Source of the DNA: Bacteroidia bacterium
Lineage (GTDB): Bacteria; Bacteroidota; Bacteroidia; Bacteroidales; UBA7960
Direction of reading: 5' to 3'
Length of the DNA stretch: 64,000 bases
Assembly: GCA_007695305.1 (NCBI GenBank)
Contig: REEA01000064.1
Coordinates: 1 to 64,000, forward strand
Shown: one piece after another, positions 5,316 to 23,917 of the stretch
How the letters are laid out: each line of letters opens with the position of its first letter
Numbering within the stretch: the first letter of the stretch is position 1
The notes under the pieces: model-generated
The model's input: the letters and a program-made list of their open reading frames with translations, nothing else
Databases searched by the model: none
What the model was told of the DNA's origin: nothing
Translations under genes and position numbers: made by a program

Positions 5316-8189
5316 CTACTGATGGCCCTTTATCCGCTGAACCGTTCTCATAACAACCCCTTTGGCAGTGTAAACCTGCATAATATAAAGCCCATCACGA
5401 AGGTTTTGTATGTTGACTTCAGCTTGTAATGCATCCACGGCCATATATTTTACCATCTGACCGCTGAGGTTAACCATACGGATTTTATCGATCATCTCAT
5501 TTGAAGAAACGGTTAACACATCATAGGCAGGATTGGGATATACCAGCAGGTCAACACCCGGGATTTCTGTTACCTGCTCTGGAAACTGAAACGTGGCTAC
5601 CAGCGTAACATCATGGGGTGGCATGGTGAATAAAAAACTGGGTTCTTCACTGATCACAACCCCATCAGCATCCGTCCAGTCAATAAAATCCCATCCTTCG
5701 GCAGCTTCTGCCGCAACCGTTACCCCGGCATCCTGGAGGTACTCTCCACCCCCAATAACAGAGCCACCGTCAACCGGATTTGCCTCCAGGGTGAGCGTAT
5801 AATAGATTGGCTCAAAATTGGCCGTAAGTGTAACATCTTCTGCCGGCATACTGATCGTTGTCTCGGCAGCAGCGGGATCATCCACATGTTCAACATCGCC
5901 TGTCCAATGGATAAATGACCATCCCTCTTCCGGTATTGCTGTAATGTTTACTTCCTGTCCCTCGCTATAGCTGCCATCCCCTGTAACAGTACCACCCTCT
6001 TCCGGGTTAACGAGCAATGTAAGGTTGTAAGAGGTCACAAAACCACCCTGGAATACAGAAACAAAGACGTCGTATCCGCCATTGTGTGTTTCGCTATATG
6101 CACCTTCTGTTGTCGGAAAATCAGCGGAAAATGTCCACCCTGTCAGATAAATATCTCCTGCCTCATCAAACAGAATCTTTGTGGCTTCTTCAAAAGAACT
6201 TCCGCCAAGAAAAGTGGAATAGGCAAGCTCACTTAAATCGGGTGTAAACACACTGATAATCACTTGTCTTGATCCACTGAAGGTTTCATTAAAGGCACCC
6301 GGCGTTACGGGATAATTGCTGGAAGAGGTAAATCCGGCAATATACACGTATCCATTGCTCGCAAGAGCAATATCATTGGCGTAATCCCAGGTATTGCCAC
6401 CAATGTATGTGGCATACAACAGATCACTCAGCTCAGGGTTAAAGATGCAGATAAACGCGTCTCTGTAGGCACTGAAAGATGTACTGTACGCACCGGGAGT
6501 TGCCGGAAAGTTGGCGGATCTGGTCATTCCTGAAATATAAACATTGTTTTCGTTGTCAAGGGTAATGCTAAGTCCATAGTCTTCATCGTTTCCACCGATA
6601 AAAGTGGAGTACAGGAGCTCGCTCAGGTCATGGCTCAAAATACTGACAAAGCCATCCCAGCTGCCCCCGTTGTGCGTTTCATTGTAAGCCCCCGGGGTAA
6701 CAGGGAAGTTGTTTGACCATGTTTCACCGGTGATGTAAACATTTCCGTCGGGATCAAAAGCAATGCTGCGCCCGCTTTCCCACATGGGAGACCCGCCGAG
6801 ATAAGTGGAATATACCAATTGACTGAGGTCCGGATTCAAAACGCTCACAATCACTGACCCGATGCCACTGTGGGTTGGCTGGAATGCGCCGGCAGTTGTT
6901 GGATAGTTGATCGAACCGGAATAACCGACAATATATATGTTTCCATCAGGATGCACGGCAATATCATAGCCAACGTCTGAAGCAGTTCCGCCAATAAAGG
7001 TTGAATACAAAAGCTGGCTCAGATCCGGGCTTAGGGCACTGACAAAGGCATCACCCGATCCATTGTGCACGGTATCAAATGCCCCCGGAGTGGTTGGAAA
7101 AAATTCCGAACCAGTTTGCCCGGTTATATACACAATGTCATTTTCATCCAATGCCAGCCCAAACACAATTTCTTCTTCCTCTGCTCCAAGAAAGCTGGAA
7201 TAAAGCAGCTCACTTAAGTCGGGACTTAGCACGCTCACAAAGATATCACGCTTATTGTTGAAGGTCTCATCATACGCCCCGGGAGTGGTCGGAAAGACAG
7301 GAGAGTTTGTCTGGCCCGCCACATATACATTACCTTGCGAGTCCAGTGCCATAGAATATGCCTGATCTGTTATGTTACCCCCCAAAAATGTGGAATAGAT
7401 CAATGGGTCGATAATCAGTGGGCGGGTTGCATCTTCCAACTGGATATGAAAGCCCACTTCACCCCTTTCATTCAGTTGAAAACTTCCCGGAACCTCTCTT
7501 TTTTCGCCGTTTATTTCCTGGTAAGCCAGTAATCCTTTATGGCGAATTTCTCCCAGGCTGGTCATAATGATCAGTTCGTCGTCATTCTTTACCAGCACTT
7601 CATCCGCCCCTTCAATAATAAAGGCAATATCATCCGCCCGTGCCCCCGGATGCACAATGAAGTCATACCTGAGGCCTTCGGGCTCATAATAGTAACGGAC
7701 ATCTATGCCGGCATCCTTACCAAAAGCACCTTCCAGAATGATTTCATCAAACAAGGGAACATGTTGTGCCCAATTGGTGGGATCGCTTCCCAGAAAATAG
7801 TTATAACGGGTGGTTTGCGGCTGATGGGTGCGAAATACCGGTTGCGATTCTGAAGATGTAACAAAGGTCATCATCAGCACATGGCCCGTGCGACGAACAG
7901 TTTCCCGCTCACCGGGTTTTTCACCGGGCATCAGAAGCGACCTTTGTCCGTTATCGGCGGTCATCCGGAAAAAATCAAAAACAACACCACGATCGGTAAA
8001 CCAGGCATTCATGTTGCCGTTCTGCGTAAAATACCTTACCTCTTCATCCCACTGGCCCTGGTTGGAAACAAAAGATGCTTTCCGGTTAAGCGTGGTTTCT
8101 ATCCTTTCCATTGATCCGGGCAGGTTGCCGGAATACAATGGTTGCAGAAAGGCAATAAGCAAAAAAAACAGTGAAATACGTAAGCTCAT
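5316..8189 (-). CDS. Exported SBBP-type beta-propeller protein with bacterial repeat domains and T9SS type A sorting domain
   Basis: 957 aa; seven tandem ~65-aa repeats (YSTFLGG...GNVYVAGxTxSxxFPTTPGAYxxTxNGxxDxFVSxLSPDLSELL); two YxLTLxxNPxxGGxVxGxGxY repeats; C-terminal VDLLVYPNPAYDVLTVSS...GLYIMQV sorting signal. Confidence 0.88.
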   Translation of the reverse strand: MSLRISLFFLLIAFLQPLYSGNLPGSMERIETTLNRKASFVSNQGQWDEEVRYFTQNGNMNAWFTDRGVVFDFFRMTADNGQRSLLMPGEKPGERETVRRTGHVLMMTFVTSSESQPVFRTHQPQTTRYNYFLGSDPTNWAQHVPLFDEIILEGAFGKDAGIDVRYYYEPEGLRYDFIVHPGARADDIAFIIEGADEVLVKNDDELIIMTSLGEIRHKGLLAYQEINGEKREVPGSFQLNERGEVGFHIQLEDATRPLIIDPLIYSTFLGGNITDQAYSMALDSQGNVYVAGQTNSPVFPTTPGAYDETFNNKRDIFVSVLSPDLSELLYSSFLGAEEEEIVFGLALDENDIVYITGQTGSEFFPTTPGAFDTVHNGSGDAFVSALSPDLSQLLYSTFIGGTASDVGYDIAVHPDGNIYIVGYSGSINYPTTAGAFQPTHSGIGSVIVSVLNPDLSQLVYSTYLGGSPMWESGRSIAFDPDGNVYITGETWSNNFPVTPGAYNETHNGGSWDGFVSILSHDLSELLYSTFIGGNDEDYGLSITLDNENNVYISGMTRSANFPATPGAYSTSFSAYRDAFICIFNPELSDLLYATYIGGNTWDYANDIALASNGYVYIAGFTSSSNYPVTPGAFNETFSGSRQVIISVFTPDLSELAYSTFLGGSSFEEATKILFDEAGDIYLTGWTFSADFPTTEGAYSETHNGGYDVFVSVFQGGFVTSYNLTLLVNPEEGGTVTGDGSYSEGQEVNITAIPEEGWSFIHWTGDVEHVDDPAAAETTISMPAEDVTLTANFEPIYYTLTLEANPVDGGSVIGGGEYLQDAGVTVAAEAAEGWDFIDWTDADGVVISEEPSFLFTMPPHDVTLVATFQFPEQVTEIPGVDLLVYPNPAYDVLTVSSNEMIDKIRMVNLSGQMVKYMAVDALQAEVNIQNLRDGLYIMQVYTAKGVVMRTVQRIKGHQ
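6060..7440 (-). repeat. Seven in-frame ~195-bp coding repeats (SBBP-type blades)
   Basis: Seven consecutive YS(T/S)F(L/I)GG-to-LSPDLSxLL units in the translation of the 5316-8189 ORF. Confidence 0.85.
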
Positions 8190-13660: not shown

Positions 13661-14026
13661 ATGATGGACGAAAAGAATGAAAGGCCCATTGGCCTGATGA
13701 GAACCGGATTATGGGTTCGGGACAAGAAAAAGATACAGCTGGTAGAATTTGAATTGCTGACACACATCATTCACGGCGATGGGGTTTCAAAAATATATTC
13801 AACCAGGGAAGTGATCAAAAAGCTGCGCATTCCCTTATCAGAACTGGAAAAGATGCTGCCTCAGGAACAATTTATCCGCACCCACAGAAATTACCTGATC
13901 AATGGCAAATGGATAGATTTTTATGATGCACAGGAGGCATTGACATACATCGCAGGCGGTATAGCAGTGCCGGTTTCCCGTCGTAAAAAGAAAAAGCTGG
14001 AATGGTTCCTGGCAAACAGAACTTGA
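13661..14026 (+). CDS. Stand-alone LytTR DNA-binding domain protein
   Basis: 121 aa; LSELEKMLPQEQFIRTHRNYLINGKWID...VPVSRRKKKKL; no receiver domain. Confidence 0.88.
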   Translation: MMDEKNERPIGLMRTGLWVRDKKKIQLVEFELLTHIIHGDGVSKIYSTREVIKKLRIPLSELEKMLPQEQFIRTHRNYLINGKWIDFYDAQEALTYIAGGIAVPVSRRKKKKLEWFLANRT

Positions 14027-14064
14027 GAGCGGAAGCGAGGACTTTTACACTTTTCAACATAATC

Positions 14065-14204
14065 AGAATCTGTCAATAAATCAAGTGTCGGATCTGTAAT
14101 GTCGGGGTTCAAGGCTTGCGCAGTTTTGAAAATCAAACAGTATACTAATGTAAATGACTGTTTTCAAAACAAGCATAACGCAGAAATCGGGCATTATAGA
14201 CAGA
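14065..14204 (+). repeat. Copy 1 of ~140-bp dispersed inverted-repeat element
   Basis: agaatctgtcaataaatcaagtgtcggatctgtaatgtc...cataacgcagaaatcgggcattatagacaga; about 86% identical to the reverse complement of 23713-23853; internal gttttgaaaa (14123-14132)/ttttcaaaac (14161-14170). Confidence 0.92.
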
Positions 14205-14226
14205 CACGAATAAAAACACATAAAAC

Positions 14227-14547
14227 ATGGAAAACAGGTTAGTTATAGAAAAGGTGGTTGCACAGAGATGCAGCATCGATTACGTATTCGTGTTTAAGGG
14301 TTACACCATCGTCGTTTTCACAAGCGGCGCTAATGAGGTGATCGATTATCCGTTGGGAGCCCTGGAGGAATTGTTGAGAGATCAGCCTTTTTTCAGAATC
14401 CACCGTTCATTCCTGGTCAACCTAAAGCGACTTAAAGAATTAGAGATCAGGAATAACAAGTTACTGGTAAAAATTCGCGGTCACGAGTTGCCTGTTTCGC
14501 GGCGAAAGAAAAGGCAATTGCTGGACATCCTTGGCGCCGTGAATTAA
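14227..14547 (+). CDS. Stand-alone LytTR DNA-binding domain protein
   Basis: 106 aa; LEELLRDQPFFRIHRSFLVNLKRLKELEI...LPVSRRKKRQLLDIL. Confidence 0.9.
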   Translation: MENRLVIEKVVAQRCSIDYVFVFKGYTIVVFTSGANEVIDYPLGALEELLRDQPFFRIHRSFLVNLKRLKELEIRNNKLLVKIRGHELPVSRRKKRQLLDILGAVN

Positions 14548-23648: not shown

Positions 23649-23712
23649 GCCTTTGCTATTTCGGTTTGCTTTGCTGATGTTCATCAAAACCTTTGGCAAT
23701 GATTAACTAATT

Positions 23713-23853
23713 TCTGTCTATAATGTCAGGTTTCTGCGTTATTTTTGTTTTGAAAACAGTCATTTTCATTAGTAAACTCCTTGATTTTCAAAACTGCACA
23801 AGTCTTGAACCTGAAAGTTACAGATCAGACACTTGACTTTATTGACAGACTCT
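23713..23853 (-). repeat. Copy 2 of ~140-bp dispersed inverted-repeat element
   Basis: Reverse complement agagtctgtcaataaagtcaagtgtctgatctgtaac...aataacgcagaaacctgacattatagacaga; nested inverted repeats tcaggtt (23726-23732)/aacctga (23808-23814) and gttttgaaaa (23747-23756)/ttttcaaaac (23785-23794). Confidence 0.92.
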
Positions 23854-23917
23854 AACTATACTTTTGCCGGCCCATGCCGGACATTAAAACGCTTCGCAGG
23901 CAACTCCGGCGGGTCTT

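Follow-up and report, generated by a model that had tools for sequence, protein, structure and literature searches.

The two copies of a short sequence that lie in opposite orientation within the 64 kb stretch of Bacteroidia DNA analysed here (the window) raise the question of what kind of element they represent, and what its interior is kept for. The original prediction, made from sequence alone, described a full-length inverted pair of about 86% identity with one 1-nt indel, containing a perfect 10-bp internal inverted repeat, GTTTTGAAAA/TTTTCAAAAC, around a 28-nt loop; both claims held on pairwise alignment (86% identity, one 1-nt indel). The predicted borders, 14065-14204 and 23713-23853, were corrected to 14066-14207 and 23710-23852 because the ends extend 3 nt past the TCTGTC/GACAGA that had been quoted, and the string given as the opening, tctgtcaataaa, starts at 14069 rather than 14065. 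Two proposals had been made, a small mobile element that is non-autonomous and a structured RNA present in dispersed copies. The first is supported by copy number, common ends, exact 6-bp duplications and an empty site, and the second is supported too, by helix covariation and an excess of G-U pairs. No named family had been recognised, and the relation of the core to ERIC/IRU was missed. Our overall reading, which we consider likely, is that of MITE ends enclosing an ERIC-homologous hairpin module, which is carried on several transposon ends and acts as folded nucleic acid. The features of the two copies are listed in Table 1.

Table 1. Features of the element copies, and of a second repeat found inserted in other copies. 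Positions refer to the window unless a locus is named.
Feature	Position	Strand	Remarks
Copy 1, 142 bp	14066..14207	+	GAATCTGTC to GACAGACAC; aligned to copy 2 and to 9 further copies in the genome
Copy 2, 143 bp	23710..23852	-	
Copy 1, left target hexamer, TAATCA, decayed	14060..14065		Placed by analogy with the 6-bp TANNTA of other copies
Copy 1, right hexamer, GAATAA	14208..14213		Now mismatches the left hexamer
Copy 2, target duplication TAACTA, perfect	23704..23709 and 23853..23858		Orthologous site empty in G020
Copy 1, folded ERIC-like core	14104..14192	+	Model R2, 72.4 bits, E = 5e-16
Copy 2, folded core	23725..23812	-	Model R2, 72.9 bits, E = 4e-16
Copy 1, internal loop J2/3, 5' strand CAAGGC	14110..14115	+	C.AGGC letters kept in 52-58 of 58 sequences
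Copy 1, internal loop J2/3, 3' strand AACGCAG	14177..14183	+	
Copy 1, helix P4, 5' arm GTTTTGAAAA	14123..14132	+	Covarying helix; the 10-bp inverted repeat first predicted
Copy 1, helix P4, 3' arm TTTTCAAAAC	14161..14170	+	Covarying helix
Copy 1, apical GA/GA internal loop, 3' strand TGACTG	14155..14160	+	
CCTG..CAGG repeat	L012 (G000:C24:8566-8621), L013 (G000:C122:1-67), start of L016		At contig ends

The window element is a genuine MITE, being short and without a transposase, with inverted ends, a fixed 6-bp target duplication and an empty site. Similarity between the two copies ceases at the element borders and their flanks are unrelated, which rules out a segmental duplication; the runner-up inverted pair across the window is only a 33-nt match at 76%. 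Chance resemblance was likewise ruled out by other genomic copies, with E values of 3e-49 to 1e-40. The original prediction would have been refuted by a lack of further copies or by a longer segmental duplication, and since neither was the case the claim of a mobile element stands. The source draft genome (2.93 Mb, 189 contigs) holds about 10 full copies of 86-90% identity and several partial ones. Set in one orientation, and allowing for some decay, these start TANNTA-GWGTCTGTC and finish GACAGACAC-TANNTA, so that GWGTCTGTC..GACAGACAC form the terminal inverted repeats, both of which change in concert between groups. At 142-143 bp the element is too short for a transposase gene, and there is no gene-sized ORF inside it. 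The target duplication was exactly 6 bp (TANNTA) in 62 of the 96 copies in which both ends were recognised, against 14.9 after shuffling, and where TANNTA stood on both sides its two free bases agreed in 62/70 copies (15.5 when shuffled). In a congener (G020), the orthologous spacer aligns collinearly with the two flanks of copy 2 joined together; the element is missing there, along with one of the two hexamers. It should be noted that the target hexamer itself has diverged at this empty site.

Distribution of the element is patchy. It is numerous in 2 of the 21 genomes surveyed in the genus, with few or no copies in most congeners; at least 14 copies each were found in genomes G012 and G026, and scattered carriers also occur in the family and order. 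A pattern scan with one genome per species returned at least 120 stretches, mostly from Bacteroidota. Carriers available in culture include Marinilabilia rubra and M. salmonicolor, and Draconibacterium is another carrier. No similar DNA was found in plasmids with two queries. The MAG Bacteroidetes GWA2_32_17 contains about 250 copies (251 and 263 ends, by strand), including head-to-tail arrays with 148-149-bp spacing in which neighbouring units have one CTAATTAG/CTATTTAG in common, as expected if an incoming copy inserts into the target duplication of a resident one. Two or three elements in head-to-tail array, with one target hexamer between units, were also observed at L118:2400-2960, L097:1850-2250 and L132:1450-1850. 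Using a crude gene finder, we placed 108 of 116 scored copies between predicted genes. Orientation was near random (23 sense versus 33 antisense between co-directional genes), and convergent spacers were used more than divergent ones. A second repeat, ending CCTG..CAGG with TTCAGGTCAGATGCGAGGCGTCGAAAGCCGCCG inside, was found inserted in two element copies at the same CTAA site, and also adjoins CTAA on contig C127 of the source genome; it is probably an insertion sequence that targets CTAA.

The inside of the element is better conserved than its ends. A core of about 89 nt folds into one long interrupted hairpin, in which the helices covary strongly and the letters of the internal loops are fixed (C.AGGC/AACG.AG and GA/GA). 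In other genera both ends switch together, for example to GTGTTTGCAAGAAAAC, yet AGGAGTTTAC-n-GTAAATGACTGTTTT remains unchanged. The helices beside the fixed letters have been rewritten with pairing kept (GTTTTGAAAA/TTTTCAAAAC, GTATTAAAA/TTTTAATAC, GTCATAAAA/TTTTATGAC), and in two Marinilabilia copies (L215 and L217) the apical stem has been swapped for TCCCGA..TCGGGA between GGAG and TGACTG. Within the window, AGGAG, the 5' partner in the apical GA/GA loop, is mutated to ACAGT in copy 1 and is intact in copy 2.

Covariation was quantified with a covariance model, R1, built from 14 Bacteroidota cores (89 nt, 28 pairs). In the R1 alignment of 124 matches, 90.1% of cells pair compared with 74.4% after shuffling, both partners have changed in every one of the 28 pairs, and covariation scored 0.400, against 0.132 for shuffled and no more than 0.103 for slid alignments. 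This alignment was fitted to the structure, includes about 10 antisense matches and so leans towards the structure, for which reason the slide control carries most weight. A wider set of 58 sequences gave a covariation score of 0.550 versus 0.155 shuffled, with the unpaired letters C.AGGC, AACG.AG, G.A and GA retained in 47-58 of the 58. Neither the two window copies nor the ERIC or gammaproteobacterial copies matched Rfam above the curated threshold, and a known Rfam RNA was therefore rejected. Some copies carry extra hairpins or foreign palindromes within the loops of the core, with the helices intact (L057, L083, L090, L096, L133, L155, L156 and L170), one example being CCTGCCTTGCCGGTAGGCAGG at CAAG^GCTT.

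The motif AGGAG.TTAC....GTAA.TGACT is that of the ERIC core, where the primers commonly used for ERIC PCR are located. A 44-nt query taken from the ERIC core had matches in 5,401 of 5,426 Escherichia coli genomes, and two E. coli ERIC loci were used for comparison. The ERIC fold has an apical helix, a GA/GA loop and a long outer stem, as in the core of the window element, and ERIC transcripts have been described as folding into a long stem-loop (PMC2229807). The order of helices and internal loops is the same, as are the letters AAGGC / AACGCAG and AGGAG / TGACT. The pattern AAGGC-AGGAGNTTACNNNNGTAANTGACTG-AACG is common to ERIC and one of the source-genome copies (L003), and occurred in none of 200 shuffles of each. 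A second model, R2, was built from Bacteroidota and gammaproteobacterial cores with ERIC left out, and aligns with E. coli ERIC in the correct register, scoring 27 bits (E = 6e-5); the same search returned one other stretch, L220:355-422, at 23 bits. R1 scored ERIC at 20-21.5 bits, not above its antisense palindromic self-matches (21-25 bits), and a sequence-only profile gave E. coli ERIC only a weak score of 10 bits (E about 0.2). Because the R1 and sequence-only scores are weak, the link rests on structure and on the fixed loop letters. On that footing, homology of the core to the centre of ERIC/IRU is well supported and, in our judgement, likely.

Like ERIC, IRU and RU-1, the window element is a transposase-less, dispersed, intergenic imperfect palindrome. 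ERIC is 127 bp long, ends in TATA and duplicates TA (PMC2759123), and its reported range is the Enterobacteriaceae and Vibrionaceae (PMC10969869), whereas the window element measures 142-143 bp, has GWGTCTGTC..GACAGACAC ends without TATA termini, duplicates exactly 6 bp (TANNTA) and resides in Bacteroidota. Since length, ends, duplication and hosts all differ, the window elements are not ERIC proper but a MITE with an ERIC core on non-ERIC ends. The open-access literature that we searched contained no description of an ERIC-like core from Bacteroidota.

The core is not confined to one phylum. With hits accepted at E up to 1e-3 for each genome, R1, trained on Bacteroidota only, detected it in 48 of 369 gammaproteobacterial genomes and in 20 of 398 Bacteroidota genomes; of these 20, 18 belong to one family with ends unlike those of the window element. 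Some of the gammaproteobacterial records are MAGs, though with 48 genomes contamination is unlikely. The copies found carry ends of several types (GAGACCTTTGCACGA, GTAACTGTTCAG, GGGAGGCTCTGATT and GGGCAYCTCTA), and gammaproteobacterial intermediates between ERIC and the Bacteroidota cores score 37-54 bits. We are inclined to regard the ERIC hairpin as a widespread mobile module and not an enterobacterial peculiarity, although the evidence is only suggestive. A bolder reading would make the ERIC core a structured RNA module of ancient origin that is mobile in its own right, spread on several end systems (such as those with IS5-type 5-bp, Bacteroidota TANNTA and enterobacterial TA duplications) over at least two phyla and selected as RNA for the element's own function; this could as easily prove wrong as right. 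Ends of the form GGGCAYCTCTA..TAGAGGTGCCC surround the core in three Bacteroidota loci of family f43 (L350, L356 and L357) and in one gammaproteobacterial locus (L359), and may represent a cross-phylum end type. Core copies also lie directly upstream of tRNA-like sequences (e.g. GGGTCTGTAGCTCAGTTGG) at the gammaproteobacterial loci L361, L368 and L373.

The clearest case of a mobilizing enzyme comes from the Gammaproteobacteria, where core-bearing MITEs (L122, L227 and others) with GAGACCTTTGCACGA ends score 42-46 bits against the Bacteroidota model. These GAGACC-type MITEs have the same folded core as the window element and differ in their ends, in a duplication of exactly 5 bp (15 of 19 copies; 1.0 when shuffled) and in having a matching transposase in the same genome. 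That genome (G066) contains a 1.2-kb IS (L254) that shares the ends of the GAGACC-type MITEs, is flanked by an AATGG duplication, encodes an IS5-family transposase and itself lacks the core. From the common ends and the duplication length we infer that this enzyme mobilizes the MITEs. The search for a transposase with matching ends, which the original prediction had proposed, found none in Bacteroidota: the genomes searched, mostly drafts whose contigs are interrupted at multi-copy IS, contained no autonomous element bounded by GTGTCTGTC or GTGCCAGCAAGAAAAC ends. Nor were DDE_Tnp_1 proteins found in the assembled contigs of the source genome and G012, and none of the loci examined had a gene enclosed by facing MITE ends. 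The ends expected of an autonomous Bacteroidota element are TAGTGTCTGTCCATAA. IS1634 was rejected as the Bacteroidota partner, as the IS1634 elements of these genomes bear other ends, e.g. CCTGACTTC. Separately, pieces of IS1634 lie near MITE-like AGTTTGTCTATAAAG ends at two contig-end loci of genome G061 (L279 on C80 and L284 on C11). Here the AGTTTGTCTATAAAG ends stand outside a longer unit that has an IS1634-family transposase and its own ends, and the contigs break within the gene.

The two strands of the core are not equivalent. With the invariant G-U closing pair left out, the R1 alignment contains 111 G-U pairs versus 22 A-C pairs; the wider set gave 51 versus 18, or 29 versus 5 by rows. 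This excess is inflated by relatedness, as it is partly inherited between related copies. The fold of copy 1 had a z-score of -4.45 on the plus strand and -1.60 on the minus strand. An excess of G-U pairs points to selection on one strand, because selection on double-stranded DNA only would give parity. We infer that the core is probably selected as a single strand, more likely RNA than single-stranded DNA; no transcript has been observed. The near-random orientation to neighbouring genes is evidence against the element having a fixed cis-regulatory function in the host, and makes it more likely that the strand-specific structure serves the element than a host gene.

The mechanism that we propose is as follows. 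A DDE-type transposase would recognize the short ends in trans, and insertion yields 6-bp TANNTA duplications with a preference for AT-rich spacers. The hairpin module of about 89 nt rides between various transposon ends in Bacteroidota and Gammaproteobacteria, and we infer that it acts as a single-stranded nucleic acid, most likely RNA. In a transcribed spacer the transcript of the element would fold, and the fixed internal loops would serve either to bind a host factor that is widely conserved, for example an RNase, or to keep it away. Insertions would thus be rendered tolerable, or neighbouring mRNA would be modulated, as for ERIC in Yersinia. There, ERIC sequences within transcripts change mRNA stability in an orientation-dependent manner, and an RNase E site has been proposed (PMC2229807). 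By analogy, Yersinia ERIC is the nearest tested precedent for the proposed function.

The alternative that survives best, and remains possible, is that the core is kept as DNA, a single-strand hairpin (for example on the lagging-strand template) read by a recombinase or replication protein, as in REP/RAYT or attC/integrase systems. In its favour, a strand-specific fold is predicted with DNA energies too (z = -6.6), and in broad outline the apical GGAG tag with its hairpin recalls the architecture of REPs; the GTAG- and CGTC-tagged REP palindromes associated with RAYT (PMC3733652) are likewise dispersed, tagged, strand-specific hairpins. However, REPs are 20-40 bp long, and in the twelve genomes searched the core bordered a Y1-transposase gene at 0 of 30 loci, on which basis membership of REP/RAYT was rejected; one Y1 locus (L335) has merely two ordinary MITE copies. 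Clean 5-6-bp duplications and terminal inverted repeats suit a DDE transposase, and frequent G-U pairs are of more consequence for RNA than for DNA.

It is less probable that the likeness to ERIC is convergent, arising by accident or from a common protein-binding site in transposon-spread imperfect palindromes. Convergence would fit the weak sequence-only scores, the differing ends and duplications, and the antisense self-matches that about equal ERIC under R1. Against it, the loops on both sides agree in position and in letters, and the gammaproteobacterial intermediates bridge the two groups. Less likely again, and in our view very unlikely and already largely refuted, is an ordinary MITE whose interior is decaying and without function, its conservation reflecting only recent spread and horizontal transfer. 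Patchiness within the genus (2/21 genomes) and neutral orientation to genes would agree with such an element, but the internal loops stay constant across groups whose ends are entirely different, each helix shows compensatory changes, and the apical stem was swapped in L215 and L217 with GGAG/TGACTG retained. Finally, a host cis-regulatory leader or terminator duplicated to many genes, as the position of copy 1 just before a LytTR gene and the intergenic location of most copies might suggest, is all but excluded. The balanced sense and antisense placement counts against it, and it is refuted as the primary explanation by the target duplications and empty site, which demonstrate insertion.

Under the reading that we prefer, a mobile ERIC-homologous hairpin acting as folded nucleic acid, these elements bear on an old problem. 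ERIC, known since 1990-91, is the namesake of a standard typing PCR; its origin, mobilizing enzyme and function are open. The occurrence of its core in Bacteroidota and many Gammaproteobacteria, on varied ends, turns this into a comparative problem. With variable helices and constant loops, the functional residues become visible and testable, and the IS5-family element with identical ends is a concrete case that names a candidate mobilizing transposase. For annotation, the element accounts for palindromic spacer repeats that had lacked an explanation and that, in some environmental Bacteroidota, number in the hundreds in a single genome. Among previously described elements of this phylum, BrickBuilt of Porphyromonas gingivalis (PMC4596501) is also a MITE confined to spacers; it differs from the window element in containing a minisatellite, and the sequences were not directly compared.

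Two further observations concern the genes of the window. Copy 1 sits between genes for two stand-alone LytTR-domain proteins without a receiver domain (13661-14026 and 14227-14547), with 19 nt separating its end from the start codon of the second. Elsewhere, a minus-strand ORF of 957 aa (5316-8189) contains six repeats of about 55 nt at 195-201-bp spacing (6205-7240), from which we infer that its product perhaps carries tandem repeats of about 65 aa.
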